Source: a virus
Virus record (IMG/VR): IMGVR_UViG_3300030109_003494
Coordinates: 1 to 25,518 of that record
Reading direction: 5' to 3' (one strand)
DNA: 25,518 bases
Below, piece after piece: positions 6,666-13,016 of this stretch; position 1 is the stretch's first letter, and every line of letters begins with the position of its first letter. Both the position numbers and the translations under genes were made by a program. Under the pieces are notes generated by a model. The model saw nothing but the letters and a program-made list of their open reading frames with translations, was not told the DNA's origin and did no database searches.

Positions 6666-8183
6666 ATGAATGTAGAAAAATTTAAACATATATTTCAAGG
6701 TCTCACCCGTGCGTATGGAGAGTATACGCCTGGTGATACTAAGAATGGAAAGGTCGGTGGCAGTGCAGTTACTAAAAGAGATAATGTATCAGATGCACTA
6801 TGGAAAAATCATCTTGAGGGTAAGGCGCCTAGTCTTGGAATTGTCCCCATTAGAGATGATAGCAGTTGTACTTGGGGTTGTATTGACATTGATACTTATC
6901 CTTTAGATCATAAATCCATACTCAATAGAATAAAAAAACTTAATTTAAAAATAACAATGTGTCGTTCTAAAAGTGGAGGGGCACATTTGTTTTTATTTTT
7001 TGATAAACCAATTGAAGCAAAAGATGTACGAAATAAACTAACAGAGATGAGTGCAGCTCTTGGTTATGGATCGTCAGAAATATTTCCAAAGCAAGTTAAA
7101 TTAAATAAAGAACGTGGTGACACAGGATCATTTTTAAATTTACCATACTTTAATGCAAGCGATACAATGCGTTACGCATTTAATGATGACGGTGAAGCTG
7201 CAACACTTGAAGAATTTTTTGAGTTGTATGAAAAAAATAAAATAACAAAAGAAGAATTTTATAAATTAGAAATTAGTCCAACAGATACAGAGATGTCAGA
7301 TGGTCCACCATGCCTGGAAATATTAATGACAGATGGAATAGAAGAGGGTGGTCGTGATAATGTTTTGTATCATTATGCTGTGTATGCAAAAAAGAAATGG
7401 CCAGATGAATGGCAAGACAAGATAGGTGAGTTTAATAATAAATATATGCGTAAGCCTTTGTCTTACACACAAGTAGAAAAAACAATTAAACAACATACAA
7501 AAACAGATTACAATTATAAATGTAAAGACCAACCAATGTGTGCATTTTGTAATGCACCTGCATGTCGTCAACGACAGTTCGGTATTGGTGGTAGCTATGA
7601 ACATAAGTTTAGTGATCTAAAAAAATATCAATCAGAGAATTCTATTTGGTATTTAAATGTAGATGGACACACAGTAGTTGTAACAACAAAACAATTGTAT
7701 AATCAAAATGAATTTGTTCTCGCATGTTTTGATCAAACAAATATTATTTTAAATGAAATACCAAAACAAGAATGGAAAAGAAAAATACAAGAGCTGGCAG
7801 ACGCTGTTGAAGTTATTGAAATGGGTGAGGATGTTACATTACATGGTAGATTTGATCAGCACTTATTTTCTTTTGTTAATGACCAAGGAAGAGCCGAACA
7901 TGCTGATGAAATAAATTATGGTAAAGCACTTGAAGAAGATGGGCATGTATATTTTAAAATGGAATTCTTAATCTCTTATTTAGAAAAGCAACGGTTTAAA
8001 GGTTTTGAAGCAACAAGAATTGCAGCTAGACTAAATGATCTTGGAGCAGAGAATACCAGGAAGTATATAGAAAAAATTCAATCAAGAGTTTGGAAAATGA
8101 AATCTGATTGGTTTAAGAAAAGAGATAATGAATTACCTCTTCCAGAAAAAAATTTAGAAACAGAAGAGGAGATACCATTTTAA
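6666..8183 (+). CDS. AEP primase of the TOTE-conflict-system type
   Basis: The product is 505 residues. Motif I is ID74-I-D76 within WGCIDIDTYP. Motif II is SKSGGAHLFLF with H107. A basic EIFPKQ segment near 138 completes the archaeo-eukaryotic primase (AEP) site, which makes primers or extends them. A zinc knuckle follows (C286, C292, C295, C300; CKDQPMCAFCNAPAC), then a C-terminal domain with RFKGFEATRIAARL near the end. The protein ends E-E-E-I-P-F, again an SSB-tail-like tip. No Shine-Dalgarno precedes the ATG, and a terminator hairpin ends about 10 to 20 bases upstream. It overlaps the methyltransferase by seven bases. The assignment is firm for AEP and good for the TOTE-type subgroup. 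Confidence 0.85.
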   Translation: MNVEKFKHIFQGLTRAYGEYTPGDTKNGKVGGSAVTKRDNVSDALWKNHLEGKAPSLGIVPIRDDSSCTWGCIDIDTYPLDHKSILNRIKKLNLKITMCRSKSGGAHLFLFFDKPIEAKDVRNKLTEMSAALGYGSSEIFPKQVKLNKERGDTGSFLNLPYFNASDTMRYAFNDDGEAATLEEFFELYEKNKITKEEFYKLEISPTDTEMSDGPPCLEILMTDGIEEGGRDNVLYHYAVYAKKKWPDEWQDKIGEFNNKYMRKPLSYTQVEKTIKQHTKTDYNYKCKDQPMCAFCNAPACRQRQFGIGGSYEHKFSDLKKYQSENSIWYLNVDGHTVVVTTKQLYNQNEFVLACFDQTNIILNEIPKQEWKRKIQELADAVEVIEMGEDVTLHGRFDQHLFSFVNDQGRAEHADEINYGKALEEDGHVYFKMEFLISYLEKQRFKGFEATRIAARLNDLGAENTRKYIEKIQSRVWKMKSDWFKKRDNELPLPEKNLETEEEIPF

Positions 8184-9199
8184 AACACTTAGATTTATTT
8201 AGTGGCATCGGTGGTTTTAGTCTTGGACTTGAAGCTACTGGTGGTTTTGAGACAGTTGCGTTTTGTGACATTGAAGAATATCCAAGACAAGTGCTGCAAA
8301 AACATTGGCCTCATGTTAAACAATATAAAGATATAAAGGAGCTGAACTATGAAAGACTCAAAGCAGATGGAATTGATTCCATCGATATCATTACAGGAGG
8401 ATACCCTTGCCAACCTTTCTCCGTCGCAGGTAGAAAAAAAGGTGAAGAAGATCCAAGACACCTCTGGCCAGAATATTTTAGACTTGTCAAAGAACTCAGG
8501 CCAACTTGGGTTATTGGAGAAAATGTTAGTGGACACATTAAACTCGGTCTCGACACCGTTATCTCGGACTTGGAGAGTGAAGACTACGCCGTTAGGCCGT
8601 TTAGTATTTCAGCTTCGAGCATCGGCGCCAACCACCAAAGAGAAAGAGTCTGGATTGTGGCGAACTCCAGACGCCCACGGGGGCCGAGGGCCGAGCTCCG
8701 AGAAGAGAATGAAAATGAAACTCGACAAGAAAATGCCAATCAGTTTGAACGATCAAGTAGCACATCCGGGTTTGATGTGGCCAACACCGAGTCAGAGAGA
8801 TTACAAAGGGGGCAGTGGAACAATCAAGGAGAAGGACGGGAAGTATTATCGTCAGAGCGACAAGACGGGAACGAAATACGGAGTGAGACTGGACGCTCTA
8901 ATAGAGTATCAACACAGGAAAATGTATCCAACCCCAGCAGCTCACGAAGGGAGACTGGGATATCAGAGGAGAGATACCGGGAAGAAGGGAACACAGAAGA
9001 GTCTAACAACGATAGTAATAGACGACGAGGGTGGCAGAGAGAAAACAACTGGGCAGTTGAACCCGACGTGGGTAGAGTGGCTCATGGGATACCCAAAAGG
9101 GTGGACCGACTTAAATCATTAGGCAATAGTTTGGTACCACAGATACCTTACTACATAGGGAAGACAATTTTAGAGGTGATGAATGGAAAAACTAATTAA
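8177..9199 (+). CDS. dcm: C5-cytosine DNA methyltransferase, AUU start
   Basis: The product is 340 residues. The frame is open from 8132 and contains no ATG, GTG or TTG before motif I. ATT at 8177 lies five bases behind AGAGGAG (8165-8171) and is the likely start. Motif I DLFSGIGGFSLGL (6-18), PCQ with catalytic C78, ENV (115-117), QRERVW (154-159) and the C-terminal RVDRLKSLGNS (308-318) are all present, so the enzyme looks intact. It should transfer methyl from SAM to C5 of cytosine. Residues about 163-300, where the target-recognition domain sits, are low in hydrophobics and rich in R, E, S and N. This stretch is shared with a second reading frame (8349-9122). Local G+C is clearly above the neighbouring genes. 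Confidence 0.85.
   Translation: MLKHLDLFSGIGGFSLGLEATGGFETVAFCDIEEYPRQVLQKHWPHVKQYKDIKELNYERLKADGIDSIDIITGGYPCQPFSVAGRKKGEEDPRHLWPEYFRLVKELRPTWVIGENVSGHIKLGLDTVISDLESEDYAVRPFSISASSIGANHQRERVWIVANSRRPRGPRAELREENENETRQENANQFERSSSTSGFDVANTESERLQRGQWNNQGEGREVLSSERQDGNEIRSETGRSNRVSTQENVSNPSSSRRETGISEERYREEGNTEESNNDSNRRRGWQRENNWAVEPDVGRVAHGIPKRVDRLKSLGNSLVPQIPYYIGKTILEVMNGKTN
8349..9122 (+). CDS. Overprinted +1-frame gene inside the methyltransferase
   Basis: The product would be 257 residues. AAGGAG (8336-8341) stands seven bases before the ATG, a better ribosome binding site than most genes here have. Visible features are SISLQEDTLANLSPSQVEKK, a W-R-V-K-T-T-P strand region, three [LM][WY]xTP motifs (residues 103-107, 143-147, 192-196) and a C-terminal GQLNPTWVEWLMGYPKGWTDL. 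From memory, phage proteins annotated near Dcm enzymes share exactly these LxPTP and NPxWVEWLMGxPxGW patterns; their function is unknown to me. Its composition is more protein-like than the matching part of the methyltransferase frame. The alternative is that it is a shadow of conserved methyltransferase DNA. A role in target recognition or as a partner subunit is speculation. Confidence 0.6.
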   Translation: MKDSKQMELIPSISLQEDTLANLSPSQVEKKVKKIQDTSGQNILDLSKNSGQLGLLEKMLVDTLNSVSTPLSRTWRVKTTPLGRLVFQLRASAPTTKEKESGLWRTPDAHGGRGPSSEKRMKMKLDKKMPISLNDQVAHPGLMWPTPSQRDYKGGSGTIKEKDGKYYRQSDKTGTKYGVRLDALIEYQHRKMYPTPAAHEGRLGYQRRDTGKKGTQKSLTTIVIDDEGGREKTTGQLNPTWVEWLMGYPKGWTDLNH

Positions 9200-9356
9200 A
9201 GAAACTTTAGGTATAGCTGCACAACTAGTAGCTAAAGCAGAAAACAAATCAGCAAAGCTAACAAAAAGAATATTAGTCAATGATTTGAAGATGATAAAAT
9301 TAAACTTAATGATGATACAAGATGATATTACAAGACAAGCACAGCAAAAAGATTAA
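9183..9356 (+). CDS. Small helical hypothetical protein
   Basis: A 57-residue product. ATG at 9183 overlaps the end of the methyltransferase (17 bases), with GAGGTG upstream. It is almost entirely helix-forming and basic (IAAQLVAKAENKSAKLTKR), ending TRQAQQKD. Its 3' end overlaps the helicase start by 35 bases in another frame, so it bridges the two genes and may couple their translation. Family not recognised. Confidence 0.6.
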   Translation: MEKLIKETLGIAAQLVAKAENKSAKLTKRILVNDLKMIKLNLMMIQDDITRQAQQKD

Positions 9357-10863
9357 TATAATATTTGGTCCACCTGGTACAGGTAAGACAACTCATTTAT
9401 TAAACATTGTTGAAAAAGAATTACAACAAGGAACACCACCAGATAGAATAGGATACTTTGCTTTTACAAACAAAGCTGCAGATGAAGCGATAGAAAGAGC
9501 TTCTATTAAGTTTGGTTTAGATAAAAAAGATCTAAGATATTTTAGAACATTACACAGTATGGCATTTAAATTTTTAGGATTAAAGAATGCTGATGTTATG
9601 GGTGATAAAGATTACAAAGAGTTATCTGATTACTTACAAGTTAATATTGTTAATCCAAATAAAACGGTAAGAGATCTAGGAATATCACAACCACAAGATC
9701 CTTATTTAAAAATAATTGATACAGCTAAAGTAAAAAATATTTCTTTGTCTGCAGCTTTTTTACAAAGCGATGAACATATACGAGGAGGCTTTGAGTTTTT
9801 AAGTTACATTGATAGAGGCATAGAAAATTTTAAAAAAAGAAAAAACAAATTAAATTTTACAGATATGATTTTAAAATTTAATGAAAGAAAAGATGCACCA
9901 AGATTAGATGTAGCGATCATTGATGAAGCACAGGATCTTAGTTTTATACAGTGGCAAATGGTTGAACTAATAATTAGAAACTGTCAACGTGCATATGTAG
10001 CTGGTGATGATGACCAGGCAATTTTTGATTGGGCTGGTGCAGATACAAAAAGACTTGGACTAATTGGTGGAGAGAGAACTGTATTGAATCAATCATATCG
10101 TATACCAAAATCTATTCACCGACTTGCAAATAATTTAATAACAAAAGTAAGAGATAGAGTTCCAAAAGATTGGCAGCCAAAAGATAGAGAGGGTTTAGTT
10201 AAATATCATCGCACGTGTTTTAATCCATCAATTGACTTAACCAATGGATCGTGGTTAGTATTAGCTAGAACAAATTATATAGCAGAACAATTCATTGAAG
10301 ATTTAAAAACAAAAGGATTCTTTTATGAATACAAAGGACGGTCTTCTGTTTCAGATAAAATGATGAGTGCAATTAAAGGTTGGAAAAAAATACAAGAAGG
10401 ACAATCAATTGAGTTACCAATCGTAAAAGATATCTATCATTACATTTCTGGTAATAGTGGTATTGAAAGAGGATTTAAAAATTTAGAAAGTGCTAGTGAT
10501 GAAGTGCAATATAACTATGAATCGTTGGTCGTGAGCCATGGTTTGAATGTCGATTCGAATACAGAATGGAACTTTGCACTAGATAAAATACCAGCAGAAC
10601 AAACAAGATATATTAATTCTGCTATGGATAGAGACCAGGATTTTCATAAATCGAAAAATATAAAAATTTCTACGATACACGCATCAAAGGGTGGCGAAGC
10701 AGACAATGTTATGCTATTAAAAGATCTACCTACAAAGGTAGACAATAATTTGAGTAAAGTTATTGATGACGAAAGGAGAGTGTTTTATGTCGGAGCGACA
10801 AGGGCAAAGAAATCTTTGCATCTTATTTCATCAAAATCAAACAGAGAGTTTAAGGAGTTGTAA
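9322..10863 (+). CDS. UvrD/Rep-like superfamily 1 helicase
   Basis: The product is 513 residues. Walker A GPPGTGKT (16-23), FTNKAADEA motif Ia, motif II DEAQD (201-205), motif III GDDDQAIFDWAGA (228-240), QSYRIP motif IV, HASKGGE motif V (453-459) and VGATRAKK motif VI (490-497) are all in order. This is an SF1A 3'-5' DNA helicase that unwinds DNA at the replication fork or in recombination. It is shorter than cellular UvrD (about 720 residues), as expected of compact phage versions that lack parts of the 1B/2B insertions. No Shine-Dalgarno is visible; the start lies inside the previous small gene. Confidence 0.92.
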   Translation: MILQDKHSKKINIIFGPPGTGKTTHLLNIVEKELQQGTPPDRIGYFAFTNKAADEAIERASIKFGLDKKDLRYFRTLHSMAFKFLGLKNADVMGDKDYKELSDYLQVNIVNPNKTVRDLGISQPQDPYLKIIDTAKVKNISLSAAFLQSDEHIRGGFEFLSYIDRGIENFKKRKNKLNFTDMILKFNERKDAPRLDVAIIDEAQDLSFIQWQMVELIIRNCQRAYVAGDDDQAIFDWAGADTKRLGLIGGERTVLNQSYRIPKSIHRLANNLITKVRDRVPKDWQPKDREGLVKYHRTCFNPSIDLTNGSWLVLARTNYIAEQFIEDLKTKGFFYEYKGRSSVSDKMMSAIKGWKKIQEGQSIELPIVKDIYHYISGNSGIERGFKNLESASDEVQYNYESLVVSHGLNVDSNTEWNFALDKIPAEQTRYINSAMDRDQDFHKSKNIKISTIHASKGGEADNVMLLKDLPTKVDNNLSKVIDDERRVFYVGATRAKKSLHLISSKSNREFKEL

Positions 10864-11130
10864 ATGATTTGCAGCAACATTTTACAACAAGCAAAAGAAT
10901 TAGTTGAAGGGGATCGTCAAGATGACTACGGCGATAAACTTAAGAATCATGAGAACATCGCTGCATTGTGGTCAATATTCCTCCAGAAAAATATTACAGC
11001 ACATGATGTGGCGATGTGTATGGCTTTGGTGAAGGTGGCTAGACTAATGCATGCACATAAAAAAGACAGCTATGTAGACTTAGCTGCTTATGCCTCTATT
11101 GCAGGGGAGATCAACGAAAGAGAAAAGTGA
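10864..11130 (+). CDS. DUF6378-like phage protein
   Basis: An 88-residue product starting directly after the helicase stop, with AAGGAG in the helicase tail. ILQQAKELVEGDRQDDYGD, then an NHENIAALW segment, then DVAMCMALVKVARL and YVDLAAYASIAGEI match the pattern of the DUF6378 family of small all-helical phage proteins near polymerase or nucleotide genes. It recalls MazG-like folds in its acidic helices, but I would not claim pyrophosphatase activity. It overlaps the polymerase start as GTGA. Confidence 0.8.
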   Translation: MICSNILQQAKELVEGDRQDDYGDKLKNHENIAALWSIFLQKNITAHDVAMCMALVKVARLMHAHKKDSYVDLAAYASIAGEINEREK

Positions 11131-13016
11131 ATCAACCCTCCTTGTTTAAAACACCAAGTGAGTGGATACCACCAGAGTCTGTTCCAGATTTATCCGATGC
11201 AAAAGAAATTGCTATCGATTTAGAAACAAAAGATGATGGATTAAATAGTGGTGTAGGACCAGGATGGGCTACGAAAAGAGGAAGAGTTATTGGTGTTGCG
11301 TTGGCCGTGGATGGTTGGGAAGGATACTATCCTATTGCTCATGAGGGTGGTGGTAACTTTGACGAGAAGATATTTAAAAGACAATTAAAAACAATTTTAG
11401 AATTACCTTGTGATAAAATATTTCACAACGCCATGTATGATGTTGGATGGCTAGATGCTATGGGTTTAAAAGTTCATGGTAAAATAATAGATACCATGAT
11501 CGCAGCTCCATTAATAAATGAGAATAGATTTAATTACTCTCTAAAAGATTTATCAAAAGAATATGTTGGTGAAACTAAATCAGAAGCTTTGTTGTATGAA
11601 GCTGCAAAAGAATGGGGTGTTAATGCAAAGAGTGAGATGTGGAAACTGCCTCCTATGTATGTTGGTCCTTATGGTGAACAAGATGCGGCTGTTACATTAA
11701 AACTTTGGCATGTATTACAACGAGAAATAAATACACAGAACTTAAATAATGTTTTTAATTTAGAGTCAGAGCTGTTCAATGTTTTATTCGCTATGAAAAA
11801 ACAAGGTGTAAAAATAGATCTTGAAAAGGCAGATAGAATAAAAAAAGATTTTCAACGCTCAGAAAAAGAAGTCTTAGATTATTTATTTAAAACATGTGGC
11901 TTTGAAGTAGAAATACTAGCACCTCTATCAATTGCAAAAGCTTTTGATAAACTTAAAATAAAATACAAGAGAACACCTACAGGATTACCAAGCTTTGATA
12001 AAAACTTTTTAGCAACACACAATCATAAGTTTGCACAGAGTATTGTAAAGGCAAGAGAGTTTAACAAAGCAAGAACAACATTTATAGATTCTATTCTTCG
12101 TCATGAACACAAAGGACGTATACATGCAGATGTCAATCAATTGAGATCAGAGACTGGTGGTACCATATCAGGACGTTTAAGTATGCAAAATCCAAACTTA
12201 CAACAAATTCCTGCTAGAAATGTTGATATTGGTCCTAAAATAAGACAACTATTTATACCAGAAGAGGGTCAGAAGTGGGGATGCTTTGATTATTCACAGC
12301 AAGAACCACGTCTTTTGGTGCATTATGCTGCAGTTATTAACGAAAACCAGGAGAAAAAAGGACAACAAGCGCTCAGAGGAGTCAAAACTTTAGTGGATGG
12401 ATACACAAATGGTAATATTGATTTCCATCAAACAGTTGCAGACATGGCTGATATAGACCGAAAACAAGCCAAGACAATCAATTTAGGGATGATGTATGGA
12501 ATGGGCAAGGGAAAACTTATGAGTGAACTAGGACTTGAAAAAGAGGAGATAGAAGATGTTTTTAATAATTATCATTCTACTGTTCCTTTTGTTAAGGAAC
12601 TAACAGATTTAAGCATGTCCAGAGCCTCACAATATGGCTTCATTAAGACATTACTACAAAGAAAATGTAGGTTCGATATGTGGGAACCTAATTCATTTGG
12701 TATGCACAAGGCTATGCCAAAGAAAGAAGCTGAAATAGAATATGGTTTTGGTCATAAGATTAAACGTGCTTATACATACAAAGCTTTGAATAGATTAATT
12801 CAAGGTTCTGCTGCCGATCAAACGAAGAAAGCAATGATAGATGTATTTAAGGAGGGTATTACACCTTTGATCCAAGTACATGATGAGCTAGATATTTCTT
12901 TCTCTACAGAAGAAGAGAGAAAAAAGATAATAGAGATCATGGAAAATGCTGTGGACATGAGAGTGCCTTCTAAAGTAGATTGTGAAATTGGTTCTTCGTG
13001 GGGCGAGATTGGATAG
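11127..13016 (+). CDS. polA: Family A DNA polymerase with 3'-5' exonuclease
   Basis: The product is 629 residues, starting at GTG in a GTGA overlap. The exonuclease domain has D31 and E33 (IDLET), N101 and D105 (FHNAMYD), and Y182 with D186 (YGEQD), a complete DEDDy site. Polymerase motif A is D388-YSQQE; motif B is R445-KQAK449-TIN-L453-GMMY457-G; motif C is H585-D586-E587. There is no 5'-3' exonuclease domain, as usual in phage replicative enzymes. Residue L453 aligns with E. coli Pol I F762. Phages with Leu there have been linked in the marine-virus literature to slower or temperate life styles. This is the main replicative polymerase. Confidence 0.95.
   Translation: MNQPSLFKTPSEWIPPESVPDLSDAKEIAIDLETKDDGLNSGVGPGWATKRGRVIGVALAVDGWEGYYPIAHEGGGNFDEKIFKRQLKTILELPCDKIFHNAMYDVGWLDAMGLKVHGKIIDTMIAAPLINENRFNYSLKDLSKEYVGETKSEALLYEAAKEWGVNAKSEMWKLPPMYVGPYGEQDAAVTLKLWHVLQREINTQNLNNVFNLESELFNVLFAMKKQGVKIDLEKADRIKKDFQRSEKEVLDYLFKTCGFEVEILAPLSIAKAFDKLKIKYKRTPTGLPSFDKNFLATHNHKFAQSIVKAREFNKARTTFIDSILRHEHKGRIHADVNQLRSETGGTISGRLSMQNPNLQQIPARNVDIGPKIRQLFIPEEGQKWGCFDYSQQEPRLLVHYAAVINENQEKKGQQALRGVKTLVDGYTNGNIDFHQTVADMADIDRKQAKTINLGMMYGMGKGKLMSELGLEKEEIEDVFNNYHSTVPFVKELTDLSMSRASQYGFIKTLLQRKCRFDMWEPNSFGMHKAMPKKEAEIEYGFGHKIKRAYTYKALNRLIQGSAADQTKKAMIDVFKEGITPLIQVHDELDISFSTEEERKKIIEIMENAVDMRVPSKVDCEIGSSWGEIG

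Follow-up and report, generated by a model that had tools for sequence, protein, structure and literature searches.

A nested gene in a phage C5-cytosine DNA methyltransferase most likely encodes the target-recognition subunit of the same enzyme

Is the long reading frame lying inside a phage methyltransferase gene itself a gene, and if so, what does its product do for the phage? The question is raised by a virus record of 25,518 nt (25.5 kb; IMGVR_UViG_3300030109_003494, positions 1-25,518), referred to here in its whole length as the window. The outer gene, alpha (8177..9199, 340 aa, probable ATT start), encodes the catalytic subunit of a C5-cytosine DNA methyltransferase and wholly encloses a second gene in relative frame +1, beta (8349..9122, ATG start, 257 aa), whose product is a probable specificity subunit; all alpha and beta features given below are on the + strand. 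An earlier note had reported a 257-codon ATG ORF at 8349-9122, which we confirm, and had held that the overlap takes in the catalytic motifs. This is borne out, as beta covers alpha motifs IV-VIII together with the entire VIII-to-X interval, and ends just short of the GN of motif X.

Chance can yield long same-strand overlapping ORFs, and the +1 ORF could have been no gene at all but a side effect of codon bias and of the conservation of alpha. We give this explanation virtually no credence, as it is refuted by the shuffling of codons, the frame-specific constraint described below, and the distribution of beta among relatives. When alpha codons were shuffled synonymously, the +1 frame was open in none of 20,000 shuffles (mean 10.0 stops), and across 71 homologous loci it held 0 stops against 9.4 expected, with a mean of 23 in the third frame. 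A beta-similarity search returned 80 relatives, every one with both frames open in the same frame relation. Since beta-based retrieval is biased towards intact beta, the search was repeated using only the 57 alpha residues upstream of beta as the query, counting the 77 loci in which the 3' end of alpha was complete. Beta was found in 76 of these, comprising 73 where it lay in the first-picked ORF and three (L222, L255, and L280) where it was recognized on inspection, so that both routes uphold the note's view that both frames are coding. In the sole exception, L250 (1268-1864), the alpha ORF stops shortly past motif VIII and no beta was found in the +1 frame. In addition, the record of Paenibacillus phage Rani annotates the beta homologue as "g50 Internal gene".

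Selection was analyzed in 32 independent pairwise comparisons, with sites classed by their effect in both frames. The +1 frame showed no clear constraint upstream of beta (dNN/dNS 0.80, 95% 0.61-1.01; dSN/dSS 0.90), and constraint on this frame sets in at the beta start. Within beta, dNN/dNS was 0.39 (N-terminal part), 0.35 (modules), and 0.23 (C-terminal part). The constraint persists when the alpha amino acid is held fixed, with dSN/dSS values of 0.39, 0.46, and 0.10 for the same three parts against the 0.90 found upstream, while the unused third frame gave 1.67, 1.30, and 1.93. Beta is a genuine gene nested in alpha. The two frames share the burden unevenly: in the N-terminal part, the stronger constraint falls on the alpha frame (dNN/dSN 0.20), whereas in the module region alpha is nearly unconstrained (dNN/dSN 0.74; dNS/dSS 0.95) and beta is constrained (0.37). 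The DNA between motifs VIII and X is therefore maintained mainly for beta, and the low-complexity "DVANTES" linker of alpha is largely a shadow of the beta modules.

Beta has its own translation signals. The AAGGAG ribosome binding site that the note had placed seven bases ahead of the ATG is present at 8336..8341, where it is spelled by Lys-Glu codons of alpha. AAGGAG is used at 57 of 66 Lys-Glu-Leu/Ile positions, yet AAG makes up 28% of Lys codons and GAG 36% of Glu codons. A TGA stop in the beta frame (8343..8345) lies one codon ahead of the beta ATG, 56 of 72 loci have a stop at equal spacing before the ATG, and Met1 does not vary in alignment A1. Because the Shine-Dalgarno sequence, the upstream stop, and Met1 are all conserved, beta most likely initiates independently and is not reached by frameshifting. 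The alternative would be a single methyltransferase polypeptide made by a programmed frameshift from alpha into the +1 frame and back, with no separate beta protein. Module segments do occupy either alpha frame, depending on the phage, and Darolandstone gp38 looks as if a shadow frame gave way to a C-terminal motif that is in frame, but the stop before the ATG, the invariant ATG, the Shine-Dalgarno sequence kept at the Lys-Glu codons, and the constraint on the beta N-terminal part in its own right all speak against such a product. We consider it very improbable, although a frameshift further downstream may occur.

With independent initiation of beta as the preferred reading, the next matter is what the two products are. 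Alpha matches PF00145 (E=2.5e-44) and PHROG 363 (E=5.5e-79). Motifs I, IV (PCQ), VI (ENV), VIII, and X are present in it and invariant in alignment A2, and the stretches that had been named as marks of the methyltransferase frame (PCQPFS, ENV, QRERVW, and RVDRLKSLGNSLVPQ) were all found. The listed methyltransferase ORF starts at GTG 8291, which would leave motif I out. Translation of alpha most likely starts at ATT 8177, since no ATG, GTG, or TTG precedes motif I and the context of this ATT is common to L085; a GAGGAG at 8166..8171, 5 nt before the ATT and similar in L085, is the probable ribosome binding site. This rare ATT start after a strong GAGGAG (8166-8179) is kept in L085, the closest relative (~2320-2340), and most other relatives have ATG.

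The alpha catalytic domain, with motifs I-VIII, spans 8177..8686 and was modeled by AlphaFold with pLDDT mostly of 75-97. It matches M.HhaI, and the alpha model aligned to this enzyme (2i9k) with Z 21.5 and rmsd 2.8 over 205 of 327 residues. Residues 171-303 (8687..9085) form a low-complexity linker where a recognition domain and motif IX would be expected, with pLDDT <50 throughout, and no motif IX window was found in the 8 alphas scored. A C-terminal segment with motif X (RVDRLKSLGNSLVPQ; 9086..9196), conserved in alignment A2, packs back against the catalytic domain in the model. Alpha thus has the catalytic motifs and the M.HhaI-like fold of the C5-methyltransferases and no folded recognition domain of its own. 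The region missing from alpha is the one that holds the recognition domain and motif IX in M.HhaI. According to the model, then, alpha is a catalytic subunit without recognition domain or motif IX, and its linker is predicted to be disordered.

Beta consists of an N-terminal part of ~103 residues, 1-7 units opening with [W/Y/L]xTP, which we call [W/Y]PTP or simply PTP modules, and a closing motif LNPTWVEWLMGYPxGWTDL. In the window, the N-terminal part (aa 1-103; 8349..8657) overlaps alpha motifs IV-VIII and is conserved in alignment A1. It is followed by module 1 (WRTPDAHGGRGPSSEKRMKM..., type M02; 8658..8777), module 2 (WPTPSQRDYKGGSG..., type M16; 8778..8924), and module 3 (YPTPAAHEGRLGYQ..., type M17; 8925..9056), and then by the C-terminal motif LNPTWVEWLMGYPKGWTDL (9057..9119), which is motif IX-like by position and is the most constrained part of beta. 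The C-terminus that the earlier note had linked to phage proteins near Dcm enzymes belongs to a known family, PHROG 1008, which beta matches with E=3.6e-32 (residues 7-255 on profile positions 32-281 of 329). In several loci (L080 and L081, 2501-4303; L079, 478-2208; L041, L043, and L044), beta extends well past the alpha stop and reaches up to 601 aa, which suggests a C-terminal extension or fusion.

Identification of beta by other means failed. Searches against Pfam and NCBIfam gave no match, single-sequence and profile searches against PDB chains gave no credible match, and AlphaFold produced a poor model of beta alone (pLDDT 54.6). Comparison with 8 canonical C5-methyltransferases by hhalign gave a probability of 0.6%, and a motif IX profile built from 8 canonical enzymes had no significant match among 33 beta proteins, its best window being the LNP motif in 13 of the 33.

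The layouts seen in relatives are more informative about the place of beta. DLane gp65, an actinophage protein, carries the catalytic motifs, four units, PRLAAAFPEWMMGWP, and a GNGV motif X all on one chain, and is matched by the beta profile with E=3.6e-10. In Colucci, gp82 has motifs I-VIII and the adjacent gp83 has six units, LNPAFVEWMMGL, and motif X (E=1.7e-15). In Brevibacillus borstelensis L108, beta is in frame with motif X and a second ORF carries alpha motifs I-VIII; its alpha groups among the nested alphas of Paenibacillaceae (98/85). The module-bearing alphas group together, separate from seven single-chain canonical enzymes (98/98), in a tree that does not show which layout came first. 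Taken together, the fused, adjacent, and nested forms put beta where the enzyme would have its recognition domain. Among actinophages, the single-chain methylases DLane gp65 and Tweety gp72 have homologous PTP modules and an FxEWMMG motif ahead of motif X, but they keep one frame throughout and have no counterpart of the beta N-terminal part. As these in-frame homologues have a corresponding motif ahead of motif X, the beta C-terminus can be assigned as a putative motif IX by its position.

Two further observations concern these relatives. The actinophage methylases Darolandstone gp38 (L199, 483-2177) and Tweety gp72 (L200, 1044-2156), each a single chain, both contain a shadow-like low-complexity stretch and then the in-frame C-terminal motif, and another frame may hold part of the module array. 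Five separate loci with identical match statistics (L111-L115) lie on one Roseovarius MAG chromosome (OX638333) and are probably repeated prophage copies.

Beta is most likely the target-recognition subunit of the same enzyme as alpha, a role that the earlier note had missed when it proposed an overprinted partner. It could instead be a conserved protein that is translated but has an unrelated role, such as anti-restriction or regulation, and merely shares DNA with alpha; the lack of a known fold or solved-structure relative and the negative sequence tests for motif IX would agree with this. However, its actinophage homologues share a chain with the catalytic motifs, at the position of the recognition domain, and precisely that region is missing from alpha, making an unrelated function improbable. 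We consider it highly probable that alpha and beta are the two subunits of one C5-cytosine DNA methyltransferase, with beta supplying the missing recognition half through exchangeable cassettes, and the two proteins would form an alpha-beta complex.

The module array varies within an otherwise conserved protein. The 71 loci contain 229 modules in varied order, which fall into ~48 clusters by rough k-mer clustering; the median length is 41 residues, and the modules differ greatly in both sequence and length. Among the 352 gene pairs with beta N-terminal parts at least 88% identical, 320 differ in at least one module, although the pairs are not independent. Between the window and L085, one clean 32-residue unit differs, the rest is nearly identical, and both frames remain in phase. 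Compared with the M02-M16-M17 array of the window, L085 has an extra M08 cassette, and L062 has a single cassette. Modules turn over fast between close relatives, with both frames staying open. Near-intact transfer of modules between very diverged genes was poorly supported, as nucleotide identity above 90% was seen in 1 of 602 diverged pairs.

By analogy, each cassette would recognise one target site. The multispecific C5-methyltransferases of the Bacillus subtilis phages SPR, phi3T, and SPbeta carry several recognition segments of ~40 residues consecutively. The likeness is one of layout, and those enzymes are single chains in one frame, whereas here the segments would make up a subunit of their own, encoded in an overprinted frame. 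Beta may also be a specificity subunit whose PTP cassettes are scaffold or DNA-contact repeats and do not each read one target. The great differences among cassettes in sequence and length could be taken that way, but cassettes of ~40 residues are the usual pattern in the phage multispecific enzymes, and the fast turnover of the beta cassettes in an otherwise conserved protein also speaks against this reading, so we regard it as possible yet rather unlikely. We favor, with some reserve, an overprinted combinatorial specificity subunit in which 1-7 swappable cassettes, gained, lost, or exchanged in the DNA with both frames left open, would reprogram restriction-site protection and leave the catalytic core untouched.

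Two-polypeptide enzymes of this class have precedents, of which the earlier note took no account, just as it missed the array of exchangeable modules in the nested protein. M.EcoHK31I, whose target is YGGCCR, and M.EaeI are two-polypeptide C5-methyltransferases of the same kind, and Lee, Kam and Shaw reportedly described in 1995 that the small M.EcoHK31I gene is nested within the large one in a different frame. By that description, the likeness to our locus lies in a nested small-subunit gene in the other frame. In M.AquI, whose target is CYCGRG, the catalytic and recognition halves are on different chains, encoded as adjacent alpha and beta subunits. Published work describes M.EcoHK31I as an active C5-methyltransferase of two polypeptides, of which the small one has motif IX and the large one motifs I-VIII and X along with a predicted TRD, and places motif X of M.AquI in its small subunit (PMC3404938). 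The large subunit of M.EcoHK31I and alpha are thus alike in having motifs I-VIII and X without IX; they differ in that a TRD is described in the former, and the beta of the window carries three PTP modules. The published placing of the TRD speaks against our reading of beta as the recognition subunit, as do the negative motif IX tests. The Colucci gp82/gp83 pair and the Brevibacillus L108 genes have an M.AquI-like layout, and the window differs from it in having motif X in alpha and nested genes.

Among phages, PHROG 363 and PHROG 1008 and gp51 and gp50 of Paenibacillus phage Rani are the same two proteins in the same nesting, and PHROG 1008 is labeled plainly "DNA methyltransferase". A hidden out-of-frame protein has also been reported from the methylase gene of phage ShiLan, where it is an HNH insertion (PMC11855218), but that insert is a homing endonuclease, whereas beta is a probable enzyme subunit. 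In a Synergistaceae MAG (L127, 1144-2643), the methyltransferase ORF contains an HNH-like insertion (CEIC...HHHDYNRPYDVMWLCQKCHHQWHK) that follows the first alpha motifs and lies in the beta frame.

Beyond mentions of M.EcoHK31I, we found no description of the phage nested gene or its modules in the open-access literature searched, the coverage of which was incomplete. The nested layout (through the M.EcoHK31I precedent), the family (PHROG 1008), and the "internal gene" of Rani are already known; the cassette array in an overprinted frame is apparently undescribed within the same incompletely covered literature. BcepC6B, ESSI2_ev129, vB_Eco_K-01, C72C1, Lacticaseibacillus R9.1, and plasmid pTO42E have one CDS annotated at this locus, and the beta profile matches all of them. 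In most records examined, only alpha is annotated, and the half that probably sets specificity has been missed because the records annotate the catalytic half alone.

The genes around alpha encode a primase (6666-8183), a helicase (9322-10863), and a DNA polymerase (11127-13016), and no restriction enzyme gene was recognized among the ten neighboring proteins searched. Such surroundings suit an orphan methyltransferase that belongs to a replication module and would most simply serve against restriction. In the mechanism we propose, alpha would provide the motifs for catalysis and cofactor (I-VIII and X), with a disordered linker where the recognition domain and motif IX belong. Beta, for which the ribosome would start anew at the binding site within alpha and read the +1 frame, would contribute an N-terminal docking part, three target-recognition cassettes, and the motif IX-like C-terminus. 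The two would assemble into one active methyltransferase, which most likely shields the phage DNA against host restriction.

In conclusion, this locus presents a long, near-complete gene-in-gene overlap with clear frame-specific selection, in which both products are probably required parts of one enzyme, and the arrangement is spread over phages and prophages whose hosts belong to many bacterial phyla. The cassette array offers a test of whether modular recognition can evolve within doubly coding DNA, and the ~48 types of swappable modules make up a set for methylome assignment.
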